A DNA stretch of 64,000 nt from Hanstruepera flava (GTDB taxonomy: Bacteria > Bacteroidota > Bacteroidia > Flavobacteriales > Flavobacteriaceae): the NCBI RefSeq assembly GCF_023634025.1, contig NZ_JALJCW010000001.1:248001-312000 (forward strand), written 5' to 3'. This document shows positions 1,895 through 17,069 of the stretch, one piece after another. Position 1 is the first letter of the stretch; each line of letters starts with the position of its first letter. The position numbers were made by a program, and so were the translations under genes. The notes under the pieces were generated by a model. It made no database searches and was not told where the DNA came from. It was given only the letters and a program-made list of their open reading frames with translations.

Positions 1895-2311
1895 TTATTG
1901 TCCACTACACTTATCACATATACCTTTTACCACCAAGTTTACATTTTCTGCTACAAAACCTTCAGGAACTTTGATTTGTGGTATTTTATGTTCTGTTAAG
2001 CAAACAGTATTACCACAGATGCTACAATGAAAATGTAAGTGCAAATCTGTTTTAATATTGCAATTGCAACCTTGTTCACATAATGCGTATTTGGTAATAC
2101 CTGTACCATCGTCTATTTGATGCACAATATCGTTTTCCTCAAAGGTCTTTATTGTTCTGTAAAGCGTTGTTCTATCTGCTTTTCCAAACGCATTTTCAAT
2201 GTCGCTTAACGTTACAGCAATTTCTTTTTCTGCAAGAAATTTATAAATAAGCAACCGCATTGCCGTAACGCGAATACCTTTTGACTCTAATAATTGTTCT
2301 ATTGTTTCCAT
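1895..2311 (-). CDS. Fur-family metal-responsive transcriptional regulator
   Basis: A 138-residue protein with the Fur layout: an N-terminal winged helix (about residues 1-80, with the recognition segment DRTTLYRTIKTF) and a C-terminal dimerisation and metal-binding part holding HLHFHC, CSIC and a final CDKC. The two CxxC pairs suggest the structural zinc site of the family, and the His-rich segment the regulatory site. It starts 2 bp after the stop of the CzcB-like gene and precedes the P-type ATPase, so it is inside the operon it probably controls. A Zur-like zinc sensor is the likeliest subtype, but the ligand cannot be read from sequence. Confidence 0.93.
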   Translation of the reverse strand: METIEQLLESKGIRVTAMRLLIYKFLAEKEIAVTLSDIENAFGKADRTTLYRTIKTFEENDIVHQIDDGTGITKYALCEQGCNCNIKTDLHLHFHCSICGNTVCLTEHKIPQIKVPEGFVAENVNLVVKGICDKCSGQ

Positions 2312-2313
2312 AA

Positions 2314-3519
2314 TTAATGAGCGTGTTCTGCTTCTCCTTTTTTCATTTCTGCTATAAGGTAATACGCATTATTGTAAGCAAATTTGGTATTAGCGGATAC
2401 TTCTTCTGAAAAAGTAACTGCAATCCAATCTCCATCTTTTTCTCCAGTTATTACTTCTACAGGCTTAAAAGCCCAAATTTCACCTTCTTTTTCTACCGTA
2501 AAAACAAAAAATCTATCGCCATCTTTTACAATGGCACTTTCAGGCAATGCCTTTGTTAAAGCATTATCGGTTTGTATTCTTCCTTGAATGTACATACCTG
2601 GAATGAGATTACCTGATTTATTTTCTATTTCGGCGTGCACGTGAACCGCTTTAGGATTGTCTTCAAAGGTTTTGCTTACCGAGTAAATCTCGGCCGTAAG
2701 TTCTGCATCTGGTATGGATTGCACACTAAAAGTTACCTTTTGCCCTTGTTTTACTTTATAGACATCTTTTTCAAACACCATTAAATCTGCGTGCACGTGG
2801 TGTGTGTTTACAATCTCGAACAGTTCAGTTTGTGGTTCTACATATTGTCCTGTCTTAACCTCGACTTTTTGCACAAAACCTTCAATGGGGCTTCGTAGCG
2901 GAATTTGTTGAGCGATACTCCCATTACGAACTGATGCTGTATTGATATTCAAAATTTTCAGTTGAGCTGACAAACCATTTACTAATGCCGTTGAACCTTT
3001 GTATTCTGCTTCTGCCTTTTGGAAATTAGCACCAGATCCTACTCCTGCATCGTATAATTTTTTTTGGCGTTCGTAATTTTTCTTTAAAAGTTCGCTATTG
3101 CTATAAGCGTTTAGGTAATCGGTCTGTAAGGCTATAATATTTGGATGTGACAAATAAGCCACTACCTGACCTTTTTCAACTTTATCGCCTTCAATTACTT
3201 TTATGGATGTTACATTTGCTCCTATAACAGAAGTAATAGCAGCTTCGTTTTGGGGTGGTACTTCCAATGTGCCGTTTGCCTCAACATAGCCACTCATATT
3301 GCGTAAGCCCAAGGTGTCTATTTTCATTTTTAAGGCATCAAACTGTTGCTGATTAATCGTTACTTCGCCTTCTTCGTGGTGTTCTTCATTTTCACTGGTT
3401 TGTTCTGTTTTATCGTGAGAATGTCCATCATTTTCTGAATGGTCTTTTTTATTGCCACAAGACACCATAAAAAGTGCTGCAAAAATGACTGCGATGTATT
3501 TATATGCTGTTTTTTTCAT
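2314..3519 (-). CDS. CzcB/CusB-like efflux RND periplasmic adaptor, lipoprotein
   Basis: Membrane-fusion protein that joins an inner-membrane RND pump to an outer-membrane channel. I place the start at the ATG at 3519 (MKKTAYKY) because this gives a proper lipoprotein signal ending in the lipobox MVSC and begins just after the stop of the pump gene; a longer in-frame start at 3555 would overlap that gene and spoil the signal. After the lipid-anchored Cys comes a His/Glu-rich segment (HSHDK, EEHHEEGE) that may bind metal. Then follow a barrel-sandwich domain split by a coiled-coil hairpin and the beta-barrel and membrane-proximal parts usual for CzcB. A C-terminal HAH end is also present. It sits between pump and Fur regulator in one operon. 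Confidence 0.92.
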   Translation of the reverse strand: MKKTAYKYIAVIFAALFMVSCGNKKDHSENDGHSHDKTEQTSENEEHHEEGEVTINQQQFDALKMKIDTLGLRNMSGYVEANGTLEVPPQNEAAITSVIGANVTSIKVIEGDKVEKGQVVAYLSHPNIIALQTDYLNAYSNSELLKKNYERQKKLYDAGVGSGANFQKAEAEYKGSTALVNGLSAQLKILNINTASVRNGSIAQQIPLRSPIEGFVQKVEVKTGQYVEPQTELFEIVNTHHVHADLMVFEKDVYKVKQGQKVTFSVQSIPDAELTAEIYSVSKTFEDNPKAVHVHAEIENKSGNLIPGMYIQGRIQTDNALTKALPESAIVKDGDRFFVFTVEKEGEIWAFKPVEVITGEKDGDWIAVTFSEEVSANTKFAYNNAYYLIAEMKKGEAEHAH

Positions 3520-3523
3520 AATG

Positions 3524-6500
3524 TTATTGATTGAAATATTGTAATTGAAATGCACTTTCTAAATAATTGATTAAAGCGTTTTGAGCTTCCAGTTCTGACT
3601 GTACGGCTTCTTTTACCAATTGTGTAAAGGTGGTATAATCTATTTCTCCTTCCTTATACGCCAACAACGCTCCTGATTTCTGGTCTTTGGTTAATGGTAA
3701 CACTTGTGTTTTGTAAAATTCCCAAGACAGTTTCCATTTTAAATAATTTTCTTTTGCTTGTGCATATTGTGATTGTAATTCTTGTTTTTTGAATAACAAA
3801 TTACTTTCTGCAATAGCATTGTCAATTTTTGCCGATTTAATTCGGGCTTTATTTGATCCTGACAGGAATGGAATAGAAATTCCTGCTTGATAGGTATAAA
3901 AACCTGAATCGCCATTAACTTTTTGTAAACCACCCTGAAGGTTCAATTTTGGTAAATTATCAGCTTTTGCTGCCCTCAATTCTGCTTCGGCGACATTCAA
4001 TTGATTTTCTGAAACAGTAACCATTGGATGTTCATTTGTTGATAAGCTATCAGTTTCAATCGTTGCAATGTTTTCCAATTCTTCTGATACAGTATAAATT
4101 TCGTCTTCAAATAACCAAAGATTTAACTGTTGTATGGCTATGAGGTAATCTCTGTATGCCTGTACTTTTTTATTTTGAATTTGAAACACTTGATTTTTTG
4201 CCGCTGAATACTCCAATTTAGAAATGGCTTCCACTTCAAAGTTCAGCGTAACTGCTTGTTCAAAATTACCATAGATGGAATCAAGCTCTTTGTACAACTG
4301 AAAGTTTCTCATAGACTGATAACATTTTGCCCACGCTTTTTTCACTTCCAGTTCTACCTCCAATTCAGATAATTGCAATGCTTTTTGAGACAACTCAATG
4401 CGTTGTTGTTGCAGTTTTCGTTTTGCTCCGATTCCAAACACATCCATATTTGATTGTCCAACACCGACCGTTGTGTAGATTCCTGTTCCATCTTTCACTT
4501 CTTCACCTCCTGTAAAGATTTGAGTAGAACCAAAATCATATGCTGTGGATTTTAGGTTTTCTTGTTTGGTAACTTCCAATTGTTTTTGCTTCAATAGTGG
4601 ATAGTTCTTTTTAGATAAAGCAACAGCATCGTTTAAAGTGATTTTAGACAAGGTATCCGTGATTTGTTGTGCATTACTTCGAGTTGAAAACACAAACATT
4701 AAAACCAGTACTGCGGTTGCACTCACTATTTTTTTGTTTAGCTTTAACCTAAACGATTTATTCTCTACCCAATGATATAAAATAGGCAATACAAATAAGG
4801 TGAGTAATGTAGAAGTCAATAACCCACCAATAACTACGGTTGCCAACGGACGCTGTACTTCTGCACCTGCCGATGCTGAAACAGCCATTGGTAAAAAGCC
4901 CAATACATCAGTAAAAGCAGTGAGCATAATGGGACGTATTCTTCGCTTTGTACCTTCCAAAATTCGTTCTTTTAAATTGGTAACACCTTCTTCTTTCAAT
5001 TCATTTAAGCCACTTATCATTACCAAGCCGTTTAGTACGGCCACGCCAAACAATACAATAAAACCAACACCTGCCGAAATGCTAAAGGGCATATCTCGTA
5101 GCCACAACGCTACCACACCGCCAATGGTAGCCATTGGAATAGCAATGTATATCATTAAGGTTTGTGGTACTGATTTTAAAGCAAAGTATATCAGTACGAA
5201 AATAAGCAGTAAGGCAATAGGTACTACGGTTTGCAAGCGGTTACTGGCTCGTTCCAAATTTTCAAAAGCACCGCCATAGCGTACAAAATAGCCAGAGGGT
5301 AATTTCAATTGTGCATCTAATTTGGTTTTAATTTCTTCTACCAATGATTTTACATCACGCCCTCTTACATTTATACCTACATAGGTTCTTCTGTTGGTAT
5401 TGTCCCTACTAATTTGCATAGGTCCCGCTTTATAAGATATATCAGCTATTTCACGAAGTGGAATTTGTGCCCCAGAAGGCAAATTGATAAACAGATTTTG
5501 AATATCTGATATATCCTTACGGTTGTGTTGGTTTAAACGAACTACCAAATCAAACCGTTTTTCGCCTTCAAAAATAACGCCTGCATTTCCTCCGGCAAAT
5601 GCCGATTGCACCATTTTGTTAAGTGTGTTGATTTGCAGCCCGTATTGCGCCAACTTATCTCTATTGTAGGTTATGGTCATTTGTGGTAAGCCTGTTGTGG
5701 CTTCGGCTTTCATATCACCAATACCCGGTGTTCCTGCAATTATTTTAGTGATTTCCTCTGCCTTTTGGGATAAGACCTCGATGTCTTCGCCGTACAACTT
5801 AATGGCAATATCTTCACGCACCCCTTCAAGCAACTCATTAAAACGCATTTCTATGGGTTGGGTAAATTCATAATTGACTCCAGGGATAATTTCAACAGCT
5901 TCTTTCATTGCTTCAATAAGCTCATCTTTTGTCTCTACCGTAGTCCATTCACTTTTAGGTTTTAGGATTACAAATACATCTGCTAAATCCATAGGCATTG
6001 GGTCTGTTGGTATTTCAGCCACACCAATTCGACTAACTATTTTTTCAACTTCGGGAAATTTTGCCTTTACAATCTGCTCAATTTTGGTAGTGGTTTCTAC
6101 TGTTTCTGATAGTGAACTACCTGGTTTTAAAATGGCGTGGAATGCAATATCGCCTTCATCGAGTTGTGGGATAAATTCACCTCCCATTCGGGTAAACATA
6201 AAGACTGTTACAGCAAATAGAGCCACTGCAATCCCTGTAATTAATTTGCCTTTTAAAAGGGCTTTTTCCAATAAAGGTTTGTACTTATTTTCAACCCAAT
6301 GCACAAATTTATCACCATAAGATAATTTATCATTTTTTGGTGTTCTCAATACTAAAGCAGACATCATTGGTACGTAGGTAAGACACAAAACCATAGCTCC
6401 AATCATTGCGAAAATAAAGGTCAATGCCATTGGTTTGAACATTTTCCCTTCAATACCTTGTAAGGCTAAAATGGGAAGAAACACAATAAGGATAATAAGC

Positions 6501-7858
6501 TGACCGAAAAAGGCTGCATTCATCATTTTTTTGGAAGCCGATGCAGCAACCTCATCACGCTCCTTGTTTGTTATTTTTTTCTTTTTAAGTACTTGGGAAG
6601 CGATAAGAAATACAGTAGACTCCACAATAATTACTGCACCATCTACAATAATTCCGAAATCTATAGCTCCTAAACTCATCAGGTTTGCCCATACGTTGAA
6701 TACATTCATTAAAATAAATGCAAACAGTAAAGATAGTGGAATAGTTGATGCTACAATTAAACCACCTCGCCAATTACCCAACAAGAAAATGAGGATAAAA
6801 ATAACGATTAAAGCCCCTTCAATAAGGTTTTTAGCAACTGTAGAAGTGGTTTCACCAATTAACTTACTTCTGTCTAAAAGTGGTTCAATAACAACGCCTT
6901 CTGGTAACGATTTTTGAATTTGAACCATTCGCTCTTTAACATTGGCAATCACATCATTTGAATTTGCACCTTTAAGCATCATTACCAAGCCACCGACAAC
7001 TTCTCCTTCACCATCTTGTGTTAATGCTCCGTAACGAATGGCTGAACCAAATTGCAATGTTGCGATGTCACCAATGGTGATAGGCACATTATTAATGGTT
7101 TTAACCGTAATTTTTTTTATATCGTTTAAACTTCTTGCCAAACCTTCTCCACGTATAAAATTAGCCTGGTGGTTTTTTTCGATATAAGCACCACCCGTAT
7201 TTTGGTTGTTGGCTTCGAGGGCTTCAAATACATCTGTAATGGTAATCCCTATAGATTTAAGCTCGTTAGGGTCTACAGCAACTTCATACTGTTTTATTTT
7301 ACCACCAATAGCGTTGACCTCGACAACCCCAGGAACCATTGCCATTTGGCGTTGTACAATCCAGTCTTGCATTGTACGCACATCTGAAATGGAATATTTG
7401 TCTTTAAACTCTGGGGCTACTTTTAAAGTGTATTGATATATTTCTCCCAGACCTGTGGATATAGGCCCCATTGTAGGTTCGCCAAAACCAGCAGGAATTT
7501 GTTCTTTTACTTCGTTGAGTTTTTCTGCTACCAATTGCCTTGGAAGATATGTACCCATATCATCATTAAATACGATGGTTACTACTGACAGACCAAAGCG
7601 TGAAATTGAGCGAATTTCTTCCACATTGGGCAAATTGCTCATTGCCACCTCAACAGGATAGGTAACTATTTGCTCAATATCTTCTGTACCTAAATTTGGG
7701 GATTGCGTTATTACCTGAACTTGGTTGTTGGTAATATCGGGAACGGCATCTATGGGTACTTTTGTCATACTCCAGATACCTGCTCCAATAATGGTAAGCG
7801 TTAGCAAACCAATAATGAATTTATTATTGATTGAAAAATCAATGATTTTATTAATCAT
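3524..7858 (-). CDS. CusA/CzcA-family heavy-metal RND pump fused to a TolC-like outer-membrane channel
   Basis: About 1444 residues, roughly 400 more than a normal CzcA. The first ~1040 residues are a full RND pump (FSINNKFIIGLLTL start, two large periplasmic loops, PATIGG-like and GxxxVLNGLVMISGLNEL segments), which drives metal export with the proton gradient. The remainder resembles the outer-membrane efflux protein (CzcC/TolC) family, with long helices and internal duplication. Between them is a Lys-start hydrophobic stretch ending in RSNAQ, which looks like a signal peptide. I take the ATG at 7858 (MINKIIDF) rather than 7897, because RND pumps begin at this point. So pump and exit duct are encoded as one chain. 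Fusions of this kind occur in Bacteroidota databases under CusA/CzcA, so the fusion itself is not new. Confidence 0.93.
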   Translation of the reverse strand: MINKIIDFSINNKFIIGLLTLTIIGAGIWSMTKVPIDAVPDITNNQVQVITQSPNLGTEDIEQIVTYPVEVAMSNLPNVEEIRSISRFGLSVVTIVFNDDMGTYLPRQLVAEKLNEVKEQIPAGFGEPTMGPISTGLGEIYQYTLKVAPEFKDKYSISDVRTMQDWIVQRQMAMVPGVVEVNAIGGKIKQYEVAVDPNELKSIGITITDVFEALEANNQNTGGAYIEKNHQANFIRGEGLARSLNDIKKITVKTINNVPITIGDIATLQFGSAIRYGALTQDGEGEVVGGLVMMLKGANSNDVIANVKERMVQIQKSLPEGVVIEPLLDRSKLIGETTSTVAKNLIEGALIVIFILIFLLGNWRGGLIVASTIPLSLLFAFILMNVFNVWANLMSLGAIDFGIIVDGAVIIVESTVFLIASQVLKKKKITNKERDEVAASASKKMMNAAFFGQLIILIVFLPILALQGIEGKMFKPMALTFIFAMIGAMVLCLTYVPMMSALVLRTPKNDKLSYGDKFVHWVENKYKPLLEKALLKGKLITGIAVALFAVTVFMFTRMGGEFIPQLDEGDIAFHAILKPGSSLSETVETTTKIEQIVKAKFPEVEKIVSRIGVAEIPTDPMPMDLADVFVILKPKSEWTTVETKDELIEAMKEAVEIIPGVNYEFTQPIEMRFNELLEGVREDIAIKLYGEDIEVLSQKAEEITKIIAGTPGIGDMKAEATTGLPQMTITYNRDKLAQYGLQINTLNKMVQSAFAGGNAGVIFEGEKRFDLVVRLNQHNRKDISDIQNLFINLPSGAQIPLREIADISYKAGPMQISRDNTNRRTYVGINVRGRDVKSLVEEIKTKLDAQLKLPSGYFVRYGGAFENLERASNRLQTVVPIALLLIFVLIYFALKSVPQTLMIYIAIPMATIGGVVALWLRDMPFSISAGVGFIVLFGVAVLNGLVMISGLNELKEEGVTNLKERILEGTKRRIRPIMLTAFTDVLGFLPMAVSASAGAEVQRPLATVVIGGLLTSTLLTLFVLPILYHWVENKSFRLKLNKKIVSATAVLVLMFVFSTRSNAQQITDTLSKITLNDAVALSKKNYPLLKQKQLEVTKQENLKSTAYDFGSTQIFTGGEEVKDGTGIYTTVGVGQSNMDVFGIGAKRKLQQQRIELSQKALQLSELEVELEVKKAWAKCYQSMRNFQLYKELDSIYGNFEQAVTLNFEVEAISKLEYSAAKNQVFQIQNKKVQAYRDYLIAIQQLNLWLFEDEIYTVSEELENIATIETDSLSTNEHPMVTVSENQLNVAEAELRAAKADNLPKLNLQGGLQKVNGDSGFYTYQAGISIPFLSGSNKARIKSAKIDNAIAESNLLFKKQELQSQYAQAKENYLKWKLSWEFYKTQVLPLTKDQKSGALLAYKEGEIDYTTFTQLVKEAVQSELEAQNALINYLESAFQLQYFNQ

Positions 7859-7931
7859 AAGAATGGTTATAATGAATTTATAAATAGAGATAAGCAACCT
7901 ATTACAAAAATGGGTTACTTGAATTTATAAG

Positions 7932-7954: not shown

Positions 7955-8266
7955 TTAAACCTGTGGTGGTTGTAAAAGGGTAGTATTGAAGTCTTTTTCA
8001 AGACCATCAAAATAATAGAATAATTGAGTTGGAATAACAGTATTAGATATACTGTAATCTACAACATTAAAATGTGTAACGTGAATATGACAACAGTGGC
8101 ATTGGCAAAATGGTGAGCATAAATCTGCTCCTTGGTGTTGATGGTCGTTGTCTAACGCTTGAGAAATTTCAGTTTTAACCTCATTATCAGGTATACCATT
8201 ATCTTCACAAGGCACTAAATTGAGCGCAAAGATATAAATAGATAATATGAGTGCTAACACTTTCAT
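7955..8266 (-). CDS. DUF6660-like small exported Cys/His protein
   Basis: A 103-residue protein with an N-terminal hydrophobic signal (KVLALILSIYIFALNLVP) and a Cys/His cluster CSPFCQCHCCHIHVTHF at about residues 50-66, followed by a C-terminal part without clear features. Proteins of this sort, named DUF6660 to my knowledge, are found as the first gene of CzcA/CusA operons in Bacteroidota. The metal-ligand-rich core suggests a periplasmic metal-binding accessory or sensor, which is inference from composition and context. It is the first gene of the metal-efflux operon, with a TAnnTTTG box immediately upstream. Confidence 0.8.
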   Translation of the reverse strand: MKVLALILSIYIFALNLVPCEDNGIPDNEVKTEISQALDNDHQHQGADLCSPFCQCHCCHIHVTHFNVVDYSISNTVIPTQLFYYFDGLEKDFNTTLLQPPQV

Positions 8267-8312: not shown

Positions 8313-10424
8313 TTATAAAAACCACAACGTATCTTTTGCATCCTCTGGAACACCGTTTTCAAAACGAGGTGCTATTTGGGCTACCATTTCGGGATATTTT
8401 ATGGTAATTGGCACATTTTGTTGGCGTAAGGATTTCCAATACAATCGGCTGAACTGATATACTTGGGTTAACAATTCTTCAATAACCTCAACATCTTCAA
8501 AAGCATCATCATCCGGACTGCTTATTTTTATTTTTATCGGAAATGGAAACCCATCAGTATCTGAATAAAAGCGGTCACTTGGATAACGTGCATTGTTAAA
8601 CAATAAGAATTGGTTTTCGGCAATGCGAATGTATGTACCACTAACCGGCATTAGTTTGTTATCCCAATTTAAATCGTAAGCAATGATGTCTTCAGATTCT
8701 GTTTTGTTGATGTTTAGTATATACAAAGGCACTCCTAATTTTAGTTTGTGCATCCCTTCTATTATGGGTTTTAACTCCTCATATTTCATTTCTTTATAAA
8801 AATGAATCACTACCTTATCTGCTTCTGCTACAGACGTAAAATCCCTAATAGCCTTTAAAATACTCCCTGCCAATAACTCTGTTTCGTTTTGGTTGAAGTA
8901 TTCAAAATTTCTAAACAAACCATTGTTTTGAAAACTAAAGGCACTTGCTATATATCTTCTGTTTTCGCCTTGATTGGTAAATGCTCCTACACCAATCACC
9001 AATTCTTTTTTATCGGTTACTGCCAACTTCCAAGGTGCACCACCTAATTTGGCGTGGATAGCCAATGCCATATTTTGTAATGAGAATTGGAAGTTGTATT
9101 GGTCTTGGATATTTACAATCATTTTTTCGTAATCGACCACTTGGGTTACAATGCCTTCATTTAAAAACAGTTCTTTAATGCGGATGTAAATTTCCCTATC
9201 GTCAGGATCTGGTGTAAACTTATCGAAAGGACTTATATAAAATGCTGCATACTTTACATTGTCGTGGTCAAAAGTTAAACTTTCAAGCTGTTCAACTATT
9301 TCAGGTATTGGGTCATTTTCGTTGGTAAATTCAATAAAGTGGTCTTTTGATGCTGTAGCCTTTATATTTACATAAGCTTCCAATCCTTTGTAATAGTTCT
9401 TTTCAGTATTTACTCCTTCTTTTAAATTTTGATAGAAAGACAGCACCGAATCTTTATGTGAGGTATGGCAAATGAAAAATATCTTGATATTTTGATTGCT
9501 TGGGCGTCTGTAAGGGTTTAGAATGTTCATTGCCTTTTTAGGCACTAAATGGGTTCTTTTGTTACCATATTGGTCTTTACCAAACTCTAATAAGCCCAAG
9601 TTAGGGTTGATGTGATTGATGCGATTGCCAGGAACATCTATAAAGGCATCTTGCTTAAAAGGAAACAAGGTCTTAAATTCTTCTGTAAACAAGTAGTTTT
9701 TAGCAAAAGTAGTGATGAGTGCTACATACTTTTGGTATCTGTTCTTTGGTCTGTCTGGTTCTTCAATAGGTATATTTAAAGCTCTTGCCAGTTGTAAATT
9801 GAATATTGGAAAGGCTTGAGTAAATTCTATGCTGTTGTAAAACTCTTCTTTATCCTCTGTATCAAGGTTCATTTGGTAATTGAAGGTTTTTTGACCATAC
9901 ACACAACGCTTAATATACTCTGTTTCCTCAATTTCCTTAACTGACTTTGTGAGAACTTTTGACGTACCATCATACGATACTACAAGTTCTGGTAAGTCTG
10001 TTAGTGTTGCAAACAGTATTTTGAATGAGAATTTATAGTATAAATTATAGTCTGCTGTATTTCCTTTTTTTGAAGGCATCCAAACCTGTACATCACGTAC
10101 AAAGTTTTTGACCACGATATAACCCTTTTCTAAAAAGTAGGTTTTTAATTGGTGTTTAAGGAATTGTTTGTATATGCGTAGTTCTTTTTCCTTTATTAAA
10201 TTTATTTTGATACTTGGGGCATTGGGTATTTCTTGGGTAAATGTGGTGAAAATATGCTCTAAACCTGATATATCTGTATCTGGAAACGCCTCTTTAATCT
10301 GCTTTGAAAACTTTGATTTATGGATTGGATGGCTACCCTCAATATCTTCTAACGATAAATATATGACAGGTGTGCTACTTGGCCATTTAAAATTGAGTAT
10401 GTTGGTTTTTAAGTGTTCTTGCAT
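8313..10424 (-). CDS. Long prokaryotic Argonaute, catalytically inactive PIWI (long-B-like)
   Basis: A 703-residue protein I assign to the Argonautes. Residues 1-270 are the poorly conserved N/L1/PAZ region, about 271-312 the L2 linker (PNLGLLEFG), 313-440 MID and 441-703 PIWI. The MID pocket for the guide 5'-phosphate is complete in the YK form: Y413 and K417 four apart, Q428 eleven residues later, and K459 in HAKLGGAPW, a family signature. The PIWI tetrad is lost: the first Asp is G480 (in VIGVG), the third is Y543 (in VIHFYKE), the last position falls at E679 (in IKYPEM); only an acidic finger (E514/E516) remains. It should bind a guide and target but not cut. The C-terminus ends in Leu-Trp-Phe-Leu, as in many family members. 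It is the third gene after XRE and HEPN-like genes, 46 bp downstream. Guide type (RNA or DNA) cannot be read. Confidence 0.9.
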   Translation of the reverse strand: MQEHLKTNILNFKWPSSTPVIYLSLEDIEGSHPIHKSKFSKQIKEAFPDTDISGLEHIFTTFTQEIPNAPSIKINLIKEKELRIYKQFLKHQLKTYFLEKGYIVVKNFVRDVQVWMPSKKGNTADYNLYYKFSFKILFATLTDLPELVVSYDGTSKVLTKSVKEIEETEYIKRCVYGQKTFNYQMNLDTEDKEEFYNSIEFTQAFPIFNLQLARALNIPIEEPDRPKNRYQKYVALITTFAKNYLFTEEFKTLFPFKQDAFIDVPGNRINHINPNLGLLEFGKDQYGNKRTHLVPKKAMNILNPYRRPSNQNIKIFFICHTSHKDSVLSFYQNLKEGVNTEKNYYKGLEAYVNIKATASKDHFIEFTNENDPIPEIVEQLESLTFDHDNVKYAAFYISPFDKFTPDPDDREIYIRIKELFLNEGIVTQVVDYEKMIVNIQDQYNFQFSLQNMALAIHAKLGGAPWKLAVTDKKELVIGVGAFTNQGENRRYIASAFSFQNNGLFRNFEYFNQNETELLAGSILKAIRDFTSVAEADKVVIHFYKEMKYEELKPIIEGMHKLKLGVPLYILNINKTESEDIIAYDLNWDNKLMPVSGTYIRIAENQFLLFNNARYPSDRFYSDTDGFPFPIKIKISSPDDDAFEDVEVIEELLTQVYQFSRLYWKSLRQQNVPITIKYPEMVAQIAPRFENGVPEDAKDTLWFL

Positions 10425-10470: not shown

Positions 10471-11178
10471 TTATAAATAGACATCGTACTTTTCAAGTTT
10501 TTCAAATAGACCTAATATATTTTCAATAATTTCATCTATAAACTTTTTGTTATCAAAGAGTAAATAATGAGATTTAAATTCCCTGTCTCTTACATAAAAG
10601 GTATATCTACCTTTTGAAAATGCTTTTAATATTTCTAATTTTTTATCTTCACCAAATAAAATTGTGCTGTTATTATGAACGATACAGTTACCTACTCTTC
10701 GTAAATTATTAATAAACGACCAGTGAGGTTCTAAATTTTTCATATTTACACCCGCAGATCGTGTTAAAAACAACTTTGCTTTTTCAAATTCACTATTTCC
10801 ACGTAAATCATCCAAACCAAACTCTTTATTATGCATTAAGCAATAAGAATTACACACGTCTTGAATAGTCCGTTCTATAAAAGAGAACAATTGTGTAATC
10901 ATTGAAGCTCTGAAACTTTGTACAAAATCCCTATCAATTTCTATTAACCTATCAACTAAATTATCCTGAATATGAGTTAGTTCTTCATTAGAATAGGTTA
11001 ATGGATTATGGTCTATTTTATGCATTATTTTTTTATACTCTTCTTCTCCATTAGAAACTGATTGTTCGAAATGGTCTTCTACAAACTTTGCATAATTGCG
11101 AAAGGTTTGTAACTCCAAGTCTAAAAAGAAGATATTGTTATCTTTTCTGAAATTTGAAAGTGCGTTTATTCTTGACAT
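10471..11178 (-). CDS. HEPN-like protein encoded with the Argonaute
   Basis: A 235-residue, mostly helical, soluble protein. Residues 85-110 (SFRASMITQLFSFIERTIQDVC) and 150-170 (HWSFINNLRRVGNCIVHNN) resemble the two core helices of HEPN domains. Family members usually read LRxIRNxIVHN there; here the canonical Arg is G163, while R160/R161 upstream and N164 and H168 remain. Thus R161-x6-H168 fits the broad Rx4-6H rule but not the tight RNxxxH form, so RNase activity is uncertain. The ATG overlaps the stop of the XRE gene by one base (TAATG), which implies coupled translation, and the Argonaute follows after 46 bp. Position and fold make it the likely effector, or an RNA-binding partner, of the inactive Argonaute. 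Confidence is high that it is a gene, moderate for HEPN. Confidence 0.7.
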   Translation of the reverse strand: MSRINALSNFRKDNNIFFLDLELQTFRNYAKFVEDHFEQSVSNGEEEYKKIMHKIDHNPLTYSNEELTHIQDNLVDRLIEIDRDFVQSFRASMITQLFSFIERTIQDVCNSYCLMHNKEFGLDDLRGNSEFEKAKLFLTRSAGVNMKNLEPHWSFINNLRRVGNCIVHNNSTILFGEDKKLEILKAFSKGRYTFYVRDREFKSHYLLFDNKKFIDEIIENILGLFEKLEKYDVYL

Positions 11179-11477
11179 TATTTACATTTCTTTTCAATCT
11201 TACTAATTTTTTCTTCAGCTATTTTGAGGATTTCCGTACTGTCCTTTTCATTTCTTATCATCTGTACAATCTGTTCGGACATCCAAAGCTTAATTAATTT
11301 GTTCTCATCTTCTTTTAATTCTTTTGCAAATGCTATTACCTGCTCTCGTCTTGCCATACGGTTTCCTCGTTCAATCTTGCTTAAATAAGCGACATCCATA
11401 TTAATATTTGCAGCCATTTCCCTTAATAGCAAATTGCGCTTTTCGCGCAATGAGCGTATGTATTCGCCAAACTCCAT
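11178..11477 (-). CDS. XRE-family helix-turn-helix regulator of the Argonaute operon
   Basis: A 99-residue Cro/C1-type DNA-binding protein. The HTH is at about residues 5-60, with LLREMAANINMDVAYLSKIERG as helices 2 and 3 and the family-typical Lys-Ile-Glu-Arg-Gly turn, followed by a charged helical tail. It is the first gene of the XRE-HEPN-Argonaute operon. An inverted repeat (11488-11513) lies directly before its start, so it probably represses its own operon. Small XRE proteins often keep toxic defence modules silent or act as antitoxins; which of these applies here is open. Confidence 0.88.
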   Translation of the reverse strand: MEFGEYIRSLREKRNLLLREMAANINMDVAYLSKIERGNRMARREQVIAFAKELKEDENKLIKLWMSEQIVQMIRNEKDSTEILKIAEEKISKIEKKCK

Positions 11478-11628: not shown

Positions 11629-13383
11629 TTATAATGATTTTGCAGGATTAGAATAGTTATTATGTGCTTCTCTATGTATTAATCCAGCCTCAACAAATTT
11701 GGTGATATAGCCTTCTGCTGTTTTATGTGGAATGTTTTGTTTGGTTGCTAAATCTAAATACTCTTGTCTACTGAATTGCTTTGGTAAACTTTCTAAAAAA
11801 CGTTCTTTACGATTTAGGCGTTTTACAGCTTTTTGTTCAATTGGTAAATCATTAAATACCTTACTACTATGCTTTACTAAAATAGCAATGATTGTTAGTG
11901 CATTTTGGAAATCGACATCCTCACATTCTTTTACTTGATTAACATCACCATCTTCCATAATGCGAAATGCTGTAAATAACATCATTAATCGAAATGCTAT
12001 TAAGCCTAATCGTCTAATGGTTGCAATATACTCTTCCGGTTGTAAGTTGATGTATTTAGTCTGTAAGGATTCAAAAAATGTATTGAATTGCTGTTGTTGA
12101 GGTGTTGTTAGTCTTACCTCAATTTCAGGATTATTCTTCAATGTTTTATATAGGCCTAAAAACTCACTTCCTAATTGCGAATAGTAATCATCTAAACCAA
12201 CATTGTTATTGCTTGAAAATACATTTTTCCAAGTGGGCTTTATATTCATATAATAGAATATAAAGCGACTGAACAAACCATTTTCGGCATTCGGGATTAA
12301 TGTTGCCACTTGCTTGGGTGTTCCTGACAATACAGTAGACAGACACGGTTTTTCTATATCTACATACTCTCTATCAGTTCTACGATAATAACTAATGGTT
12401 TCGTGATGGAAGGCTTTACGAAAACCATCGCTATAATTACCGTAATCGCTTTTAAATGCTTGTGCTAATGTATCGCCTTCGGTTTCAAAAATCAATCCTC
12501 TGCCTTCATTATCAGAAATTAATTGATATACTCCAGTAACACTATTGTTGGCAGGGATAAACAACATTCTTTCGGGTGGCTTACCGGGTTTCTCTAAATT
12601 TTCATCTTTACCCTTGTTCATATTATACGTTGCCATTTCTGTATTAAATTGTTGCTTTAGTACTTTGGCTTGCTCACGTTTTAATTTATGTACAGGATCT
12701 ACCAAATTTTTAATTTGGTTAAGCCTGCCTTTACCTGCAGATGCAGGTGCAGTTACAAACAGATATAAATTAGCAAAAACTTTACGTTGGTCGTAGATAC
12801 CAAAGAGTTTGGGAAAGCAGGCACTAAAAGCCGTTAAAGCTCCTAACAACAAAATGTCCTTTTCCTCTTGACTGCTCGCAGGATTTACAACTTGTTGTAA
12901 AAACTGCGGTAAGCTATTAAATACCTCATCTGGTATTGTTGGCATTGCTTGCTCTGGTGCATCAACAACAGTTGCAACATTTGTTGCAACTTCGTTGTTG
13001 TTTTGTTGCTTCATCGGTTTTATACCTGCCTGATGTGCATAATGGTAAAACGTTGCAATGGTAATGCCGTGACCTTTTGCATTTAAACATTTGTTAAATT
13101 GTTCGTCACATTCTTTTGAATCATAACCTACATAGTTTTTGCTTATTCTGTGTAAATAATCTCTTCCTGTCTCTCCATATTCTTCAGCCAAAGCAAATCC
13201 TAAATCTCTCCAAGTGGCATAATTTCCTGTGATGTCTATACCTGATTGCTCAATTGCTGAAATGTAGGTTTCAATGTCATTATCAGCAACAGCAACAACA
13301 TTAGTTGCTGCGTTGTTGCTTGTTGGTTGCGGTTGTTCTTTTGGAACTTCCAACCATTCTTTTGGGTTAAATATTTTTGTCAT
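11629..13383 (-). CDS. PriCT_2 and DUF3987 domain protein (mobile-element replication)
   Basis: A 584-residue protein. After a short Gln/Asn-rich lead, residues ~35-125 match the primase C-terminal-2 type (TWRDLGFALAEEYGETGR, then CLNAKGHGITIATFYHYA), and residues ~150-560 the DUF3987 type, with a P-loop-like segment TAPASAGKGRLNQ near 210-222 and IFETEGDTLAQAF near 300. This is the standard helicase/primase-like protein of Bacteroidota integrative elements. Two near-identical linkers (ATNVVAVAD and ATNVATVVD) flank the PriCT_2 domain. Its ATG overlaps the stop of the BT4734-like gene by 4 bases. It is the last gene of the replication operon. Confidence 0.88.
   Translation of the reverse strand: MTKIFNPKEWLEVPKEQPQPTSNNAATNVVAVADNDIETYISAIEQSGIDITGNYATWRDLGFALAEEYGETGRDYLHRISKNYVGYDSKECDEQFNKCLNAKGHGITIATFYHYAHQAGIKPMKQQNNNEVATNVATVVDAPEQAMPTIPDEVFNSLPQFLQQVVNPASSQEEKDILLLGALTAFSACFPKLFGIYDQRKVFANLYLFVTAPASAGKGRLNQIKNLVDPVHKLKREQAKVLKQQFNTEMATYNMNKGKDENLEKPGKPPERMLFIPANNSVTGVYQLISDNEGRGLIFETEGDTLAQAFKSDYGNYSDGFRKAFHHETISYYRRTDREYVDIEKPCLSTVLSGTPKQVATLIPNAENGLFSRFIFYYMNIKPTWKNVFSSNNNVGLDDYYSQLGSEFLGLYKTLKNNPEIEVRLTTPQQQQFNTFFESLQTKYINLQPEEYIATIRRLGLIAFRLMMLFTAFRIMEDGDVNQVKECEDVDFQNALTIIAILVKHSSKVFNDLPIEQKAVKRLNRKERFLESLPKQFSRQEYLDLATKQNIPHKTAEGYITKFVEAGLIHREAHNNYSNPAKSL
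13291..13320. repeat. 9-bp inverted repeat inside the PriCT_2-DUF3987 gene
   Basis: AGCAACAAC (13291-13299) and GTTGTTGCT (13312-13320), 12-bp spacer, in the segment coding the first Asn/Ala-rich linker. A second GCAAC-rich patch with two GTTGCAAC palindromes is at 12971-12978 and 12983-12990 in the other linker. Codon choice for Asn, Ala and Thr alone could produce this. Confidence 0.45.
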
Positions 13384-14288
13384 AATGCTTGGTGTCTTTT
13401 ATGTAAAAAAGCTGTTGGGTCGTATGGTAAAAAACACGCTCTGGAAACGTCTTTACCTGATTGGTCAACCTCAATGTTATAGGTATGCTTAATGTAATTG
13501 GCTACTGCGGTGAAATACTCTGAATGTGTTACTTCTGAAACATCTATTCTGATAATCCATTTTAGACCATCACCGGAAGGTGATGTAAATAGCATTTCGG
13601 TTTCAAAATATTCATCATTCAATAATTGGGTTCTTAACTCTTGTAGATTATCTAAATGGTCAAAATCAATAGTTAATAGATTGGAATGCTCTAACAAATT
13701 GTTATCGTTTCGCTTTTCAAATGTTCCTGAAATAGTGACGTAATCAAAGCGATTAGCTTTGAATTTACGTGCTTCTTTTACATCGGTTATTGCTCTTAAA
13801 TCTTCAGTAATCCTTTTGTATTTATCACTTGTGATTAATGCAAATACTTGATGTAATCGCATAGTTTCCGCAGGAAACACATTGCGAACCGGGGCTTTGA
13901 AAAAGCTACAGTAAGCATACCAGGTATCATCTGGACCATTCAACCAATCTAATTCGCTTTTTTCCTTGACTTCTAAATTTAGGTGCAACTCTTGGTTAAT
14001 CTTATGCAACAATTCTTCTTCATCGGTTATTCTGAAATGGTACTGTGCAAAATCGAATACATCTCCGTTAAAAGTTTTTAGTTCTGTATCTCGATGTGTT
14101 GCTATAACGCCATCAATATGAATCCGTAAAGTTTCTTTACCACCATTAAAAGGGTTTCGGGTTATCCCGCAGTCCCTTCCTTTTACAGAAAGGACTGTTG
14201 TTTCAGGATAATAGTGTCTTAACACGTAGGCATAAATCTTTAAGCCGTAATGTGTTTTGTCTAAAATTGCCTCTCTACTTACTTCCAT
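13380..14288 (-). CDS. BT4734/BF3469-like protein (VirE N-terminal domain)
   Basis: A 302-residue protein that in Bacteroidota elements stands just before DUF3987 proteins. Its C-terminal half (about residues 130-300) shows the BT4734-like pattern: LTIDFDHLDNL, an acidic metal-binding-like strand as in primase/polymerase palms, then SPSGDGLKWIIRID and DVSRACFLPYDP. The N-terminal ~110 residues (VKGRDCGITRNPFNGG, then TLRIHIDG) look like a separate small domain. A role in element replication or priming is inferred from these acidic motifs and the neighbours. It overlaps both adjacent genes, so the unit is translated together. Confidence 0.82.
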   Translation of the reverse strand: MEVSREAILDKTHYGLKIYAYVLRHYYPETTVLSVKGRDCGITRNPFNGGKETLRIHIDGVIATHRDTELKTFNGDVFDFAQYHFRITDEEELLHKINQELHLNLEVKEKSELDWLNGPDDTWYAYCSFFKAPVRNVFPAETMRLHQVFALITSDKYKRITEDLRAITDVKEARKFKANRFDYVTISGTFEKRNDNNLLEHSNLLTIDFDHLDNLQELRTQLLNDEYFETEMLFTSPSGDGLKWIIRIDVSEVTHSEYFTAVANYIKHTYNIEVDQSGKDVSRACFLPYDPTAFLHKRHQAL

Positions 14289-14571
14289 CTTGATTGAAAT
14301 TATGGTTGTAGTAGTTATCTTGAAGCAATTGCTCTACATCGGACACTTTGTAATAAAACTTACCCTTTACTTTGCTATAAGGCAGTGTTCCGTTATCTCT
14401 AAAGGTCTGTAAGGTTCGCTTACTGATGTGTAAGGTCTGCAATACGTCTTGGTTGTCTATCCACGTATCTTTTAATACTTCCGCTCTCGAATGTCGTAAC
14501 AACTCGATACGTGCTTTTAAGTCCTTTATTTCTTGTGAGAGCGCCAAGAGTAAATCGATTATTTCAGTCAT
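14275..14571 (-). CDS. Helix-turn-helix domain protein (excisionase-like)
   Basis: A 98-residue protein with an N-terminal coiled coil (IDLLLALSQEIKDLKARIELL) and a MerR/excisionase-type winged HTH at about residues 36-85 (LHISKRTLQTFRDNGTLPYSKVKGKFYYKVSDVEQLL). Such pairs of small HTH proteins open the replication operons of Bacteroidota conjugative and mobilisable elements. It overlaps the BT4734-like gene by 14 bases and the preceding HTH gene by 4. Confidence 0.86.
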   Translation of the reverse strand: MTEIIDLLLALSQEIKDLKARIELLRHSRAEVLKDTWIDNQDVLQTLHISKRTLQTFRDNGTLPYSKVKGKFYYKVSDVEQLLQDNYYNHNFNQDGSK

Positions 14572-14867
14572 AACTTCACCGCTCCTTTCTTAATTAAGTA
14601 ATCGGCAGCTTGCTGTTCGATTTCATCTTGTGAATCGACACGGTTAGTTAATAACCATTGTTCTAATTCTACTCTGTTGAAATAAATCTTCTTACCATTT
14701 GGTTTGTAATGCGGAATGGTTCCGGTACTCGTAAGCTTGTATAAATGGGATTGTGACAATTCCAAAAATTTACAGGCTTCGTTAAAGCTCAATACGTTTT
14801 TTACAATAATGTTTCTGTCTAAAACGTGTGCTTCGATAATTTTAAGACGTTCTAATATTTCGTCCAT
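14568..14867 (-). CDS. Helix-turn-helix domain protein (excisionase-like)
   Basis: A 99-residue protein with a MerR/excisionase-like HTH at about residues 25-75 (LSFNEACKFLELSQSHLYKLTSTGTIPHYKPNGKKIYF followed by ELEQWLL). It is the first gene of the four-gene replication operon. An 18-bp palindrome lies 28 bp before its ATG and may be its own binding site. The C-terminal tail has no recognisable feature. Confidence 0.86.
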   Translation of the reverse strand: MDEILERLKIIEAHVLDRNIIVKNVLSFNEACKFLELSQSHLYKLTSTGTIPHYKPNGKKIYFNRVELEQWLLTNRVDSQDEIEQQAADYLIKKGAVKL

Positions 14868-14894
14868 AACTAATTAATTTTAAAAATAGAAATG

Positions 14895-14912
14895 GACATC
14901 TGGCCAAATGTC
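14895..14912. promoter_or_regulatory. 18-bp near-perfect palindrome before the HTH operon
   Basis: GACATCTGGCCAAATGTC, symmetrical except for one base pair, centred on TGGCCA. It is 28 bp upstream of the first HTH gene and in the only long gap between the replication and integration operons, so it is a likely operator. Confidence 0.55.
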
Positions 14913-14964
14913 ATTCTTGGTTTTCAAGAACAGGACAAAGGTTTAAAATTGGCTATCGGATTTT

Positions 14965-15020
14965 AGTAAGAGTGTAAAATGAGAGTAAGACAACAGTAAG
15001 ATTTCTTACTAATCTTACTG
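14965..15020. repeat. Cluster of five AGTAAGA motifs with a 10-bp-stem hairpin
   Basis: AGTAAGA occurs at 14965, 14984 and 14995 and, inverted, as TCTTACT at 15004 and 15013. The last three build a perfect hairpin: CAGTAAGATT (14994-15003), 7-nt loop, AATCTTACTG (15011-15020), followed on the plus strand by TTTTTT. It begins 5 bp after the stop of the unknown gene at 15025. It may end that transcript, although the U-run is on the wrong side, or serve as a protein-binding or origin site. Confidence 0.6.
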
Positions 15021-15024
15021 TTTT

Positions 15025-15975
15025 TTATTGCAGTTGTTGGATTGTTTTATCGATTTCTTCCTTTTCTTTCGGGCTATCAATCTTGTTTTTGTATAAATTT
15101 CCTGCTCTTAAAGCTGCTCCAGTTTTAGTTATAAATTTTCCTGAACGCTCTATAGTTGTTGGTTTCAAATTATGGAAATAAGATTTCAATTCTTTAACTA
15201 CATAGCTAAATTGTGTTGTTTCACATTGCAGGTAAATCTTGTAATCTATATTATTGAAGTTTTCTGCTAATAACAGTTTTTCCAATTGTTCAGGGGTAGT
15301 TCTATTGTCTAATAGTTCAATCCTAAAATGTAATTGCTTTATAACTGGAAGTAATTTTGAAGTATCTCTATTTTTATAACCAAATGAGGTTTTAGGCTTA
15401 CTCGTTGTTTTAGATAGCTTTTTAACCACCTCTTTTTTATCAGTTTCTAATTTTAGAAATACTGAAGTATCAAAATCAATATCGTTAAAGTACTTTTCTG
15501 CTATTTCTTGAATTGAGAATAATGCAGATTCTGAAAATTGTCCGTATTGCTCTTGTAGTTCAATGTATAAGCGAATTGCAGATACTTTTAAGTAATTGAT
15601 GATATAATCGGTGTCATTGCCTAAATTGTTACTTATAGACTGCTTTTTAATGTAGGTGGCAATATCCTTTAAATACTTATTGAACTTATTAAATTGTACG
15701 GTATAGTTATACTTGTTTTCGGGTTCCGTAGCATCTTTTGGGAATTGGGATTTTAATGTTGCTAATTCGGTTTCAGTATCATTTGAAATCAGCTTAAAGT
15801 AATATTCTTTTTTACTGTTTAGAGGTCTTTTAAAGTTTACTTTAAAAACCACATTAGTAGCTTTTGGTGTTTCCTTTAATTCAGAGTTCTGAAAATTAAA
15901 TTCTCTATCTGATCTATCGTCTCTATGTAAACCGTTGGTAATCGACACCAAACTTGCAAATACATTTCCATTCAT
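15025..15975 (-). CDS. Unknown protein encoded with the integrase
   Basis: A 316-residue soluble protein I cannot assign to a function. The C-terminal third (about residues 215-300: LDNRTTPEQLEKLL, then DYKIYLQCETTQFSYVVKEL and ITKTGAALRAGNLYKNK) resembles a conserved C-terminal region I recall from hypothetical proteins of Bacteroides and related genera. The central part is helical with a Lys/Thr-rich linker near residue 190. Its ATG overlaps the integrase stop by one base, so it is the third gene of the integration operon. A role in excision or element maintenance is possible, by context only. Confidence 0.75.
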   Translation of the reverse strand: MNGNVFASLVSITNGLHRDDRSDREFNFQNSELKETPKATNVVFKVNFKRPLNSKKEYYFKLISNDTETELATLKSQFPKDATEPENKYNYTVQFNKFNKYLKDIATYIKKQSISNNLGNDTDYIINYLKVSAIRLYIELQEQYGQFSESALFSIQEIAEKYFNDIDFDTSVFLKLETDKKEVVKKLSKTTSKPKTSFGYKNRDTSKLLPVIKQLHFRIELLDNRTTPEQLEKLLLAENFNNIDYKIYLQCETTQFSYVVKELKSYFHNLKPTTIERSGKFITKTGAALRAGNLYKNKIDSPKEKEEIDKTIQQLQ

Positions 15976-17069
15976 TATAAATCCAATTGAATACGGTTAG
16001 CAGCTTCTTTCTTTTTATCATCAATTACCTTTGCATAAATCTGTGTTGTTCTCAATTCTTTATGTCCTAATAATTTTGATACTGTGTAAATATCTGTACC
16101 CAAAGTTAACTGTAAAGTAGCATACGTATGACGCGCACAATGAAATGTTATATCTTTTGTAATACCTGCTTTCATCATCCATTGTTGTAATTTAAGGTTT
16201 GACCAGGCACTATAATGTAAACCTTCAAAAACTTTTGCTTCGGGTTTTCCTGCTTCACCTAATAATTCTCTTGCCTGTTCTGAAATTGGTAATGTTTCAG
16301 CACCTTTGGTTTTCTTTTGTCTGAAACGTATGTAATAACCCATTTCTTTAGAGTGTTGGATTTCTGACCATACCAATTTTTCAATATCTGACCAACGCAA
16401 TCCGGTAAGGGCTGAAAATATAAAAGCATTTTTTAATAATGGTAATTCACATTCTGTGTTAACTGCTTTTTGTAATTCATCAAGCGTTAAAAATTCTCGT
16501 TGAGGTTCTCCTTGTTTGAAATAATCTACACCATTAGCAGGATTGACTTTTAAAATACCATCCTTAACTGCTTGCTTTAAAGCTGCACAAAACTTACCAT
16601 AGTATGAATATTTAGAGTTTTGAGACAATTTTTTACCTGCTCTTGCCATAGCATCTTTGTCTAAATACTCTTTGAAACGCTCTACAAATGATTTATCCAA
16701 ATCTTGAAAACTAACATCTGTAGGACAAAAGGTCTTTAAATGTTTTAGCATACTGTTCCAATTGCCATAGTTGCCAGAGCTTGTATTTTTCTTTTCAGCT
16801 AAAGCTGTAACATAAGTAATAAAACTTCCTTTTAATTTCTCAATATCCTGAAACCCGTAAATACCGTTTTGTATTTCTATTTGGCGTTGTGCGCAAATGG
16901 TTTCTGCTAATTGCTTGGTTTTCTTGTTAACCTCTCTTTCGGTTTTAGTTTTAGGATTAGGTGTAAGGTATAAGCGTAAATACTCGGTTTTGCGTTTTCC
17001 TTTATGATAGTAATCTAAATACAGACTTATTTTATCATTCTTTTTGCGTTGTCTTAATGTTACTTTCAT
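15975..17069 (-). CDS. Tyrosine recombinase (integrase) of the mobile element
   Basis: A 364-residue site-specific recombinase. Residues ~1-65 form an arm-type DNA-binding domain (LRQRKKNDKISLYLDYYHKG), ~80-180 the SAM-like core-binding domain, and ~195-360 the catalytic domain. The catalytic set is complete: R225 (TGLRWSDI), a Lys in QKKTKG near 252, H310 and R313 (HCARH), H336 (LLGHKEL) and the nucleophile Y345 (QIYAKV). It is therefore probably active. It follows the zinc-ribbon/HTH gene by 6 bp and points away from mnmE, whose 3' end 590 bp away is the likely attachment site. Confidence 0.95.
   Translation of the reverse strand: MKVTLRQRKKNDKISLYLDYYHKGKRKTEYLRLYLTPNPKTKTEREVNKKTKQLAETICAQRQIEIQNGIYGFQDIEKLKGSFITYVTALAEKKNTSSGNYGNWNSMLKHLKTFCPTDVSFQDLDKSFVERFKEYLDKDAMARAGKKLSQNSKYSYYGKFCAALKQAVKDGILKVNPANGVDYFKQGEPQREFLTLDELQKAVNTECELPLLKNAFIFSALTGLRWSDIEKLVWSEIQHSKEMGYYIRFRQKKTKGAETLPISEQARELLGEAGKPEAKVFEGLHYSAWSNLKLQQWMMKAGITKDITFHCARHTYATLQLTLGTDIYTVSKLLGHKELRTTQIYAKVIDDKKKEAANRIQLDL

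Follow-up and report, generated by a model that had tools for sequence, protein, structure and literature searches.

A predicted internal signal peptide between a heavy-metal RND pump and an outer-membrane channel encoded by one gene in Hanstruepera flava

We analyzed a 64,000-nucleotide stretch of the Hanstruepera flava genome (Bacteroidota, Flavobacteriaceae; contig NZ_JALJCW010000001.1, positions 248,001 to 312,000), hereafter the window, with a focus on a gene that joins a resistance-nodulation-division (RND) efflux pump to an outer-membrane channel. The first-pass annotation of the window had read both proteins in a single chain, and this was confirmed by matches to TIGR00914 and PF02321 within one 1444-residue frame that runs without a stop. 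The computed mass of the full-length fused chain is 160 kDa, and the proposed cut would yield a pump of about 117 kDa and a channel of about 43 kDa. The start of the gene is the sole uncertain point, with the frame also open from a TTG at 7897. The gene for a periplasmic adaptor begins 4 nt past the stop of the fused gene; its start was taken as the ATG at 3519, where the list of open reading frames (ORFs) instead has a GTG at 3555. A gene for a Fur-family regulator adjoins that of the adaptor. The coordinates of these features are collected in Table 1.

Table 1. Features of the fused gene and its operon, in window coordinates
Feature	Position	Strand	Basis and remarks
Fused pump-channel gene	7858..3524	-	1444 aa; ATG at 7858, stop 3526-3524, no internal stop
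Heavy metal efflux (HME) RND pump half, residues 1-1028	4775..7858	-	TIGR00914, PF00873; end of transmembrane helix 12 (TM12) at the LPILY motif
Linker and basic n-region, residues 1029-1043 (HWVENKSFRLKLNKK)	4730..4774	-	Sequence; charge in homologues
Hydrophobic h-region, residues 1044-1057 (IVSATAVLVLMFVF)	4688..4729	-	Sequence; helix in the AlphaFold2 model
c-region, residues 1058-1063 (STRSNA), with proposed signal peptidase I cut after A1063	4670..4687	-	Conservation of A1063/Q1064
Predicted mature outer-membrane factor channel (TolC/CusC type), residues 1064-1444, 381 residues, 43.2 kDa	3527..4669	-	PF02321, AlphaFold2, Foldseek
Periplasmic adaptor, CusB/CzcB type, lipoprotein-like start MKKTAYKYIAVIFAALFMVSC	2314..3519	-	PF16576 and TIGR01730 above cut-off
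Fur-family regulator adjoining the adaptor	1895..2311	-	PF01475, 39 bits (cut-off 23)

The pump half scored 1219.5 bits against TIGR00914 (CusA/CzcA) over residues 1-1037, with a curated cut-off of 701.45, and 935 bits against PF00873. The solved structures scoring highest against it were those of ZneA (4k0e) and CusA. It was noted that the pump sequence contains DFGIIVDGAVIIVE, which fits the acidic motif DFGxxxDG of transmembrane helix 4, a motif that we take to mark HME-RND pumps of the divalent-cation type. The fused gene was the only TIGR00914 match of the H. flava genome at E ≤ 1e-150 (four of seven candidates scored), and further RND pumps were detected in this genome with the broader PF00873. 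One second RND frame of 1237 aa, with PF00873 in four pieces, lies just outside the window (contig 1, 243638-247282).

The channel half matched PF02321 (OEP) in two stretches, as expected of this two-repeat domain (112 bits; cut-off 22). An AlphaFold2 model of residues 1005-1444, with 55 sequences in the alignment, reached a mean predicted local distance difference test (pLDDT) score of 88.6 and gave a full TolC-like protomer with long helices and two strand pairs. When the channel model was compared with the Protein Data Bank in Foldseek, 43 matches were found at E ≤ 0.001, and their titles named outer-membrane channels or efflux pumps (SilC 9rmm, CusC 3pik, OprM, TolC and others), with the exception of six rows that say only 'a membrane protein from Pseudomonas aeruginosa'. 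TM-scores normalized to the query were 0.65-0.71 to the TOprJ1, SilC, CusC (3pik) and TolC entries, and lower (0.41-0.47) for the rows of another CusC study (4k34, 4k7k). On the predicted structure, the channel half is complete and has the TolC-type protomer fold.

The two halves are joined by a linker of 35 residues, which follows ..LFVLPILY1028 and reads HWVENKSFRLKLNKKIVSATAVLVLMFVFSTRSNA, then QQITDT. A Lys/Arg-rich n-region is succeeded by a hydrophobic stretch and a c-region, and the latter ends at the A1063/Q1064 junction. In the AlphaFold2 model a separate 15-residue helix was predicted at 1042-1056, next to a TM12 helix of 27 residues that is itself truncated by the start of the construct. 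Fourteen residues (1057-1070) lie between the end of the linker helix and the first channel element, and pLDDT falls below 50 at 1059-1067, straddling the proposed cut. The basic n-region, short hydrophobic core, small P1 residue and Gln at P1' are those of a type I signal peptide under the Bacteroidetes Q-rule; the departure from this class is that the segment is internal, beginning at residue 1029 of 1444, and not N-terminal. The linker thus fits a Sec signal peptide-like segment that obeys the Q-rule.

The junction was compared among homologous fused proteins. Of 147 loci, 110 had a frame longer than 1380 aa, and four of these were set aside: L067 and L108, which by eye are not pump-channel fusions, L013, a duplicate of the window's own L001, and L121, since its longest frame is antisense (its true frame was read separately). 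There remained 106 fused proteins including that of the window, 94 of them non-redundant. We found the motif [AGSTC]Q, sought 2-14 residues after the hydrophobic maximum of the linker, in all 106 and thus in 94/94 of the non-redundant set, compared with 49/1056 for the hydrophobic segments that these 94 proteins have in their pump halves. Shuffling the 25 residues after the core 1000 times gave a mean of 34.6/94 and a maximum of 48/94. The Lys-led hydrophobic stretch ending in RSNAQ that had been reported after the last membrane helix was found in place (RSNAQ at residues 1060-1064), and the motif is commoner than chance would give. The stretch held more than one motif match in 28/94 proteins and AQ was among the matches in 80/94; with AQ preferred where present, P1 was Ala in 80, Ser in 11, Gly in 2 and Thr in 1.

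A second set of fused proteins, from named genomes and overlapping the 106-protein set in part, carried the motif in 76/76; 62 of them had AQ somewhere in the 21 residues that follow the core. Two further proteins read by eye, L121 (GTAQAQD) and L210 (SYTQEK), were also compatible with the motif. As a natural variant, Thr precedes Gln at the junction in L102 (..TYKTQEN) and in L210 (..SYTQEK), which are candidates for weak sites. Among 15 full-length homologues Q1064 was invariant and A1063 nearly so. The MAFFT alignment of the 94, which was not anchored on the motif, gave 0.99 for the Gln column and 0.84 for the preceding Ala, and the 24 retained columns upstream of Ala-Gln (those with a residue in 60% of rows or more) stood at 0.56 or below. 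When the 94 were aligned on the first match, K or R made up 35-47% of residues at -24 to -19 and was absent from -13 to -5, and AVILMFC made up 68-89% at -14 to -6. The longest uncharged run had a median of 14 residues, the stretch from TM12 to the core carried a net positive charge in 92/94, and the channel counted from the first match measured 373-399 aa.

Unfused channels were examined at their starts, as had been suggested in the first-pass annotation. Standalone channels of the same family (30 loci minus L156, L163 and L172) carried the motif in 27/27 by the same measure. Seven close relatives are split (L142-L147, L253), with the channel gene next after the pump gene, and in 7/7 the start of the channel gene encodes a stretch that resembles a signal peptide and ends in ..AQ at the homologous place, in some cases with a long n-region.

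The C-terminus of RND pumps is cytoplasmic, and a channel fused to it therefore needs a second export signal, which the linker would supply. From the n/h/c profile, the near-invariant Ala-Gln, the topology and the split relatives, we consider it very probable that the gene encodes a two-protein precursor with an internal Sec signal, that signal peptidase I cuts it between A1063 and Q1064, and that the signal is retained on the pump. This agrees with the internal signal peptide and cleavage site that had been proposed for the chain. In the suggested course of events, a 12-helix metal pump would be inserted in the inner membrane with its C-terminus reaching the cytoplasm, and a short Lys/Arg-rich loop would lead into the internal Sec signal, which would take the remaining part of the protein through the membrane. 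A cut by signal peptidase I at A1063/Q1064 would then follow, and the exposed Gln would be cyclised by a periplasmic glutaminyl cyclase. The 381-residue channel would move to the outer membrane, trimerise and rejoin the pump through the separately encoded adaptor, with the signal left on the pump as a C-terminal thirteenth helix. Because pump and channel share one chain, they would be synthesised in equal amounts, and a 1:1 ratio would suit a trimer-to-trimer machine.

The enzymes of this scheme were sought in the same genome, which encodes a signal peptidase I (PF10502) and a glutaminyl cyclase of family PF05096, presumably of the plant type. The accessible portion of one study reports a plant-type glutaminyl cyclase in Flavobacteriia and predicted Q-values above 48% in 332 of 334 Bacteroidetes species, with a mean of 71% (PMC5837995). 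Gln cyclisation is described as stabilising exported proteins, and the cyclase as essential in P. gingivalis, in the accessible portion of another (PMC10653852). Since the junction fits the Q-rule, Gln is predicted as the first residue of the mature channel, in the form of an N-terminal pyroglutamate.

Several observations weigh, without being decisive, against an internal signal cut at this site. The c-region of the window protein is of a suboptimal form, with Arg at P4 and Ser at P3, and in two homologues (L134, L050) the segment from TM12 to the core is net negative. A site caller blind to Gln, built on our own (-3,-1) weights and retained as a conservative control, arrived at Gln in +1 in 77/106 proteins, and in 55/62 of the sites scoring at least 3. 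A fixed-length gapless matrix was trained on the 27 standalone signals and scanned along whole chains, and it did not decide the matter: it ranked the linker best in the chain in 60/94 with the +1 column included, in 36/94 without that column and in 17/94 on the core columns alone. In the window protein, a site in the pump scored above the linker on this matrix (8.8 vs 5.5).

The explanation that survives best beside the cleaved signal, improbable as we judge it, is that the segment is an uncleaved thirteenth transmembrane helix tethering the channel to the inner membrane. Its orientation would be right for this, with the positive loop inside and the chain toward the periplasm, but the predicted helix is short (15 residues vs 27 for the truncated TM12) and Ala-Gln is conserved exactly at the helix exit. 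The channel N-terminus should lie far from the inner membrane in the assembled pump, and the tether looks too short in the model; an uncut tether is unlikely because 14 residues are too few to reach that place. The first-pass annotation had set a thirteenth helix against the signal peptide as its refutation. The two are compatible, since the signal should stay on the pump as such a helix after cleavage, and a plain anchor has no need of the conserved Ala-Gln.

Still less probable is that the channel comes also or mainly from internal translation initiation, with the segment acting as an N-terminal signal. An in-frame ATG, GTG or TTG does occur between TM12 and the core in 62/94 genes (ATG in 40), and the split L145 starts there; the other 32/94 have none of these three codons in the stretch (rarer start codons uncounted), and internal initiation is therefore not general. 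The candidate codon of the window gene, the GTG of V1045, would leave the signal without basic residues. That another periplasmic protease separates the halves, or that the fused chain is an annotation artefact, is hardly credible given a conserved site of the signal peptidase I type with the phylum-typical Gln, and long frames kept across many genomes.

The split relatives also bear on the history of the fused gene. In L145, pump and channel share a frame that only one stop codon interrupts, ..KKKELTDN, stop, YTHLQMKTSISTIFLLLISSFSLAQNAQTLTLEQA. Its junction (KKKELTDN, stop, YTHLQMKTSISTIFLLLISSFSLAQN) can be set against KRKNKMKTPIITVIILLISAFSFAQN of the fused L033, Met included, and L033 reads ..KRKNKMKTPIITVIILLISAFSFAQNTQTVTLEQA at the joint. 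A pump tree of 145 rows, which took in 113 fused rows (L020 and L028 were dropped as the same genes as L146 and L147), had four fused/split changes, and the seven splits were nested inside the fused clade. A careful 17-row tree had two changes and a fork joining L145 to fused rows (support 80/75), and the seven splits as one clade were rejected (approximately unbiased (AU) test; p-AU 0.026). Outside the main clade stand the fused L050 and L121, with the split L043 and L047 near them, and a single clade uniting the fused rows with L142 and L145, two of the nested splits, was likewise rejected (p-AU 0.014); in the smaller sample of that test L142 stood beside the fused L033 (support 81/54). Both AU tests are weakened because the groups were named after the first tree had been seen, and a p-AU of 0.026 is modest.

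By eye, no channel-like ORF of at least 150 aa was found directly downstream of the split pumps L043, L047 and L041 in the available flank; the branches of these three lie outside the main clade of fused genes. In the simplest reading of these trees and junctions, the genes fused long ago and later came apart again, most likely on at least two occasions, and the former internal segment would have served as the N-terminal signal of the channel after fission. That every fused gene goes back to one origin was considered and set aside, as the p-AU of 0.014 speaks against it; with L050 and L121 placed away from the main clade, there may have been either a second fusion or additional splits.

We assessed the distribution of the fused form across the phylum and a plasmid collection. 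In the order, where 148 genomes were sampled, frames of at least 1424 codons held 68 of the 123 family matches listed (at most four candidates per genome scored; counted by hand), and fused and split forms were both among the matches listed for 296 genomes of the phylum (two candidates per genome). Of 587 confirmed matches in genome contigs the best 80 were kept, a choice that favours full-length proteins; 76 of these 80 were fused with the motif, L210 was fused, L219 and L240 were incomplete and L253 was split. L210, which the TM12 search pattern missed, was left out of the motif count together with the latter three. In the plasmid collection 3944 records matched the fused protein and 35 covered at least 80% of its length, all of them with Bacteroidota genus names (phylum assigned from the genus). 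Among the plasmid matches listed, the 19 rows from other groups (H42-H60) stop between residues 1028 and 1043. Two metagenome-assembled genomes labelled Chlorobiota and Melioribacteraceae were fused too. As a point against a uniform layout, five Hymenobacter plasmid rows (H36-H40) match about 70% of the protein and end at 1004-1028, and the fusion is therefore not in every close pump of the group.

Horizontal transfer to Gammaproteobacteria was considered for one fused pump recorded as 'Glaciecola amylolytica' (L223) and set aside; by eye its neighbour genes carry Bacteroidota-like signals, and the record is therefore probably mislabelled.

Extended to the whole of Bacteroidota, the reading becomes one that we favour with some reserve: signal peptidase I would act as the protease that matures a pump-channel polyprotein of ancient origin, with one translation supplying two membranes. 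It would entail a pyroglutamate channel, a permanent helix 13 and a periplasm-facing pump C-terminus, which textbook RND topology lacks, and a history of at least one fusion, possibly two, with fission probably at least twice.

The pump, adaptor and channel families of the window system all match those of CusCBA/CzcCBA (HME-RND, Transporter Classification 2.A.6.1). In both of the two proteobacterial loci inspected, the channel of those systems is a gene of its own and placed first (channel-adaptor-pump), whereas in the window it is fused to the pump C-terminus and the adaptor comes after. The closest mechanistic precedent is FbcH, the cytochrome b/c1 precursor of Bradyrhizobium japonicum, which our literature search did not return. 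There, one gene likewise encodes a polytopic membrane protein and, behind an internal signal peptide, a partner that is exported, the product being cut into two subunits, and the fused gene has the same architecture, known here from sequence. FbcH is a respiratory enzyme of one membrane, whereas here the second product would be destined for the other membrane, the junction fits the Q-rule and the layout is widespread within a phylum. Q-rule substrates of signal peptidase I, as far as the accessible portions of PMC5837995 and PMC10653852 describe them, likewise have Gln at +1 after a Sec signal, but their signals are N-terminal and that of the window protein lies inside the chain, behind 12 helices. 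Signal peptidase is likewise, judged from partial sources, a maturation step for viral polyproteins that contain internal signals, but in viruses and the eukaryotic endoplasmic reticulum and not for a bacterial pump.

The domains and the signal type are thus known, and their arrangement was not found described in the open-licence papers searched: no pump-channel fusion appeared in the listed titles and abstract openings, nor in the accessible parts of PMC8277102, PMC6281302 and PMC6549377. Annotated plasmid records name the chain 'CusA/CzcA family heavy metal efflux RND transporter', and once 'heavy metal efflux pump, CzcA family'. Because such annotation as a pump hides the channel half, surveys of outer-membrane factors may undercount channels. 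If the proposed cleavage is true, Bacteroidota produce an envelope machine in the form of a polyprotein that the housekeeping signal peptidase divides, and a ready test is at hand of whether matched pump and channel synthesis matters. The junction also suggests that predictors restricted to the N-terminus would miss internal functional signals.

Directly upstream of the pump gene lies a small Cys/His-rich DUF6660 protein (7955-8266, reverse strand), possibly a metal-binding partner of the pump. DUF6660-like small ORFs were also seen by eye close to the pump in L142, L143, L145 and L253. The pump operon is adjoined by an Argonaute-like protein (8313-10424, reverse strand; PADLOC prokaryotic Argonaute model PDLC02385, 938 bits; Pfam Piwi), beside which are encoded a 235-aa protein with no Pfam or PADLOC family match (10471-11178) and a small helix-turn-helix protein (11178-11477). 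These are followed at 11629-17069 (reverse strand) by a DUF3987/PriCT_2 primase-like protein, a BT4734-like protein, a DUF6617 protein and a tyrosine integrase. No tRNA was found in the window by ARAGORN. The pump operon may be carried on an integrated element.

A different channel fusion was noted in the same genome, where L163 (contig 2, about 302.4-306.0 kb) has an OEP channel behind a periplasmic binding-protein-like domain (by eye) in one 785-aa frame and adjoins an RND pump gene. OEP frames of 785-829 aa were also encountered in G420, G432, G433 and G434.

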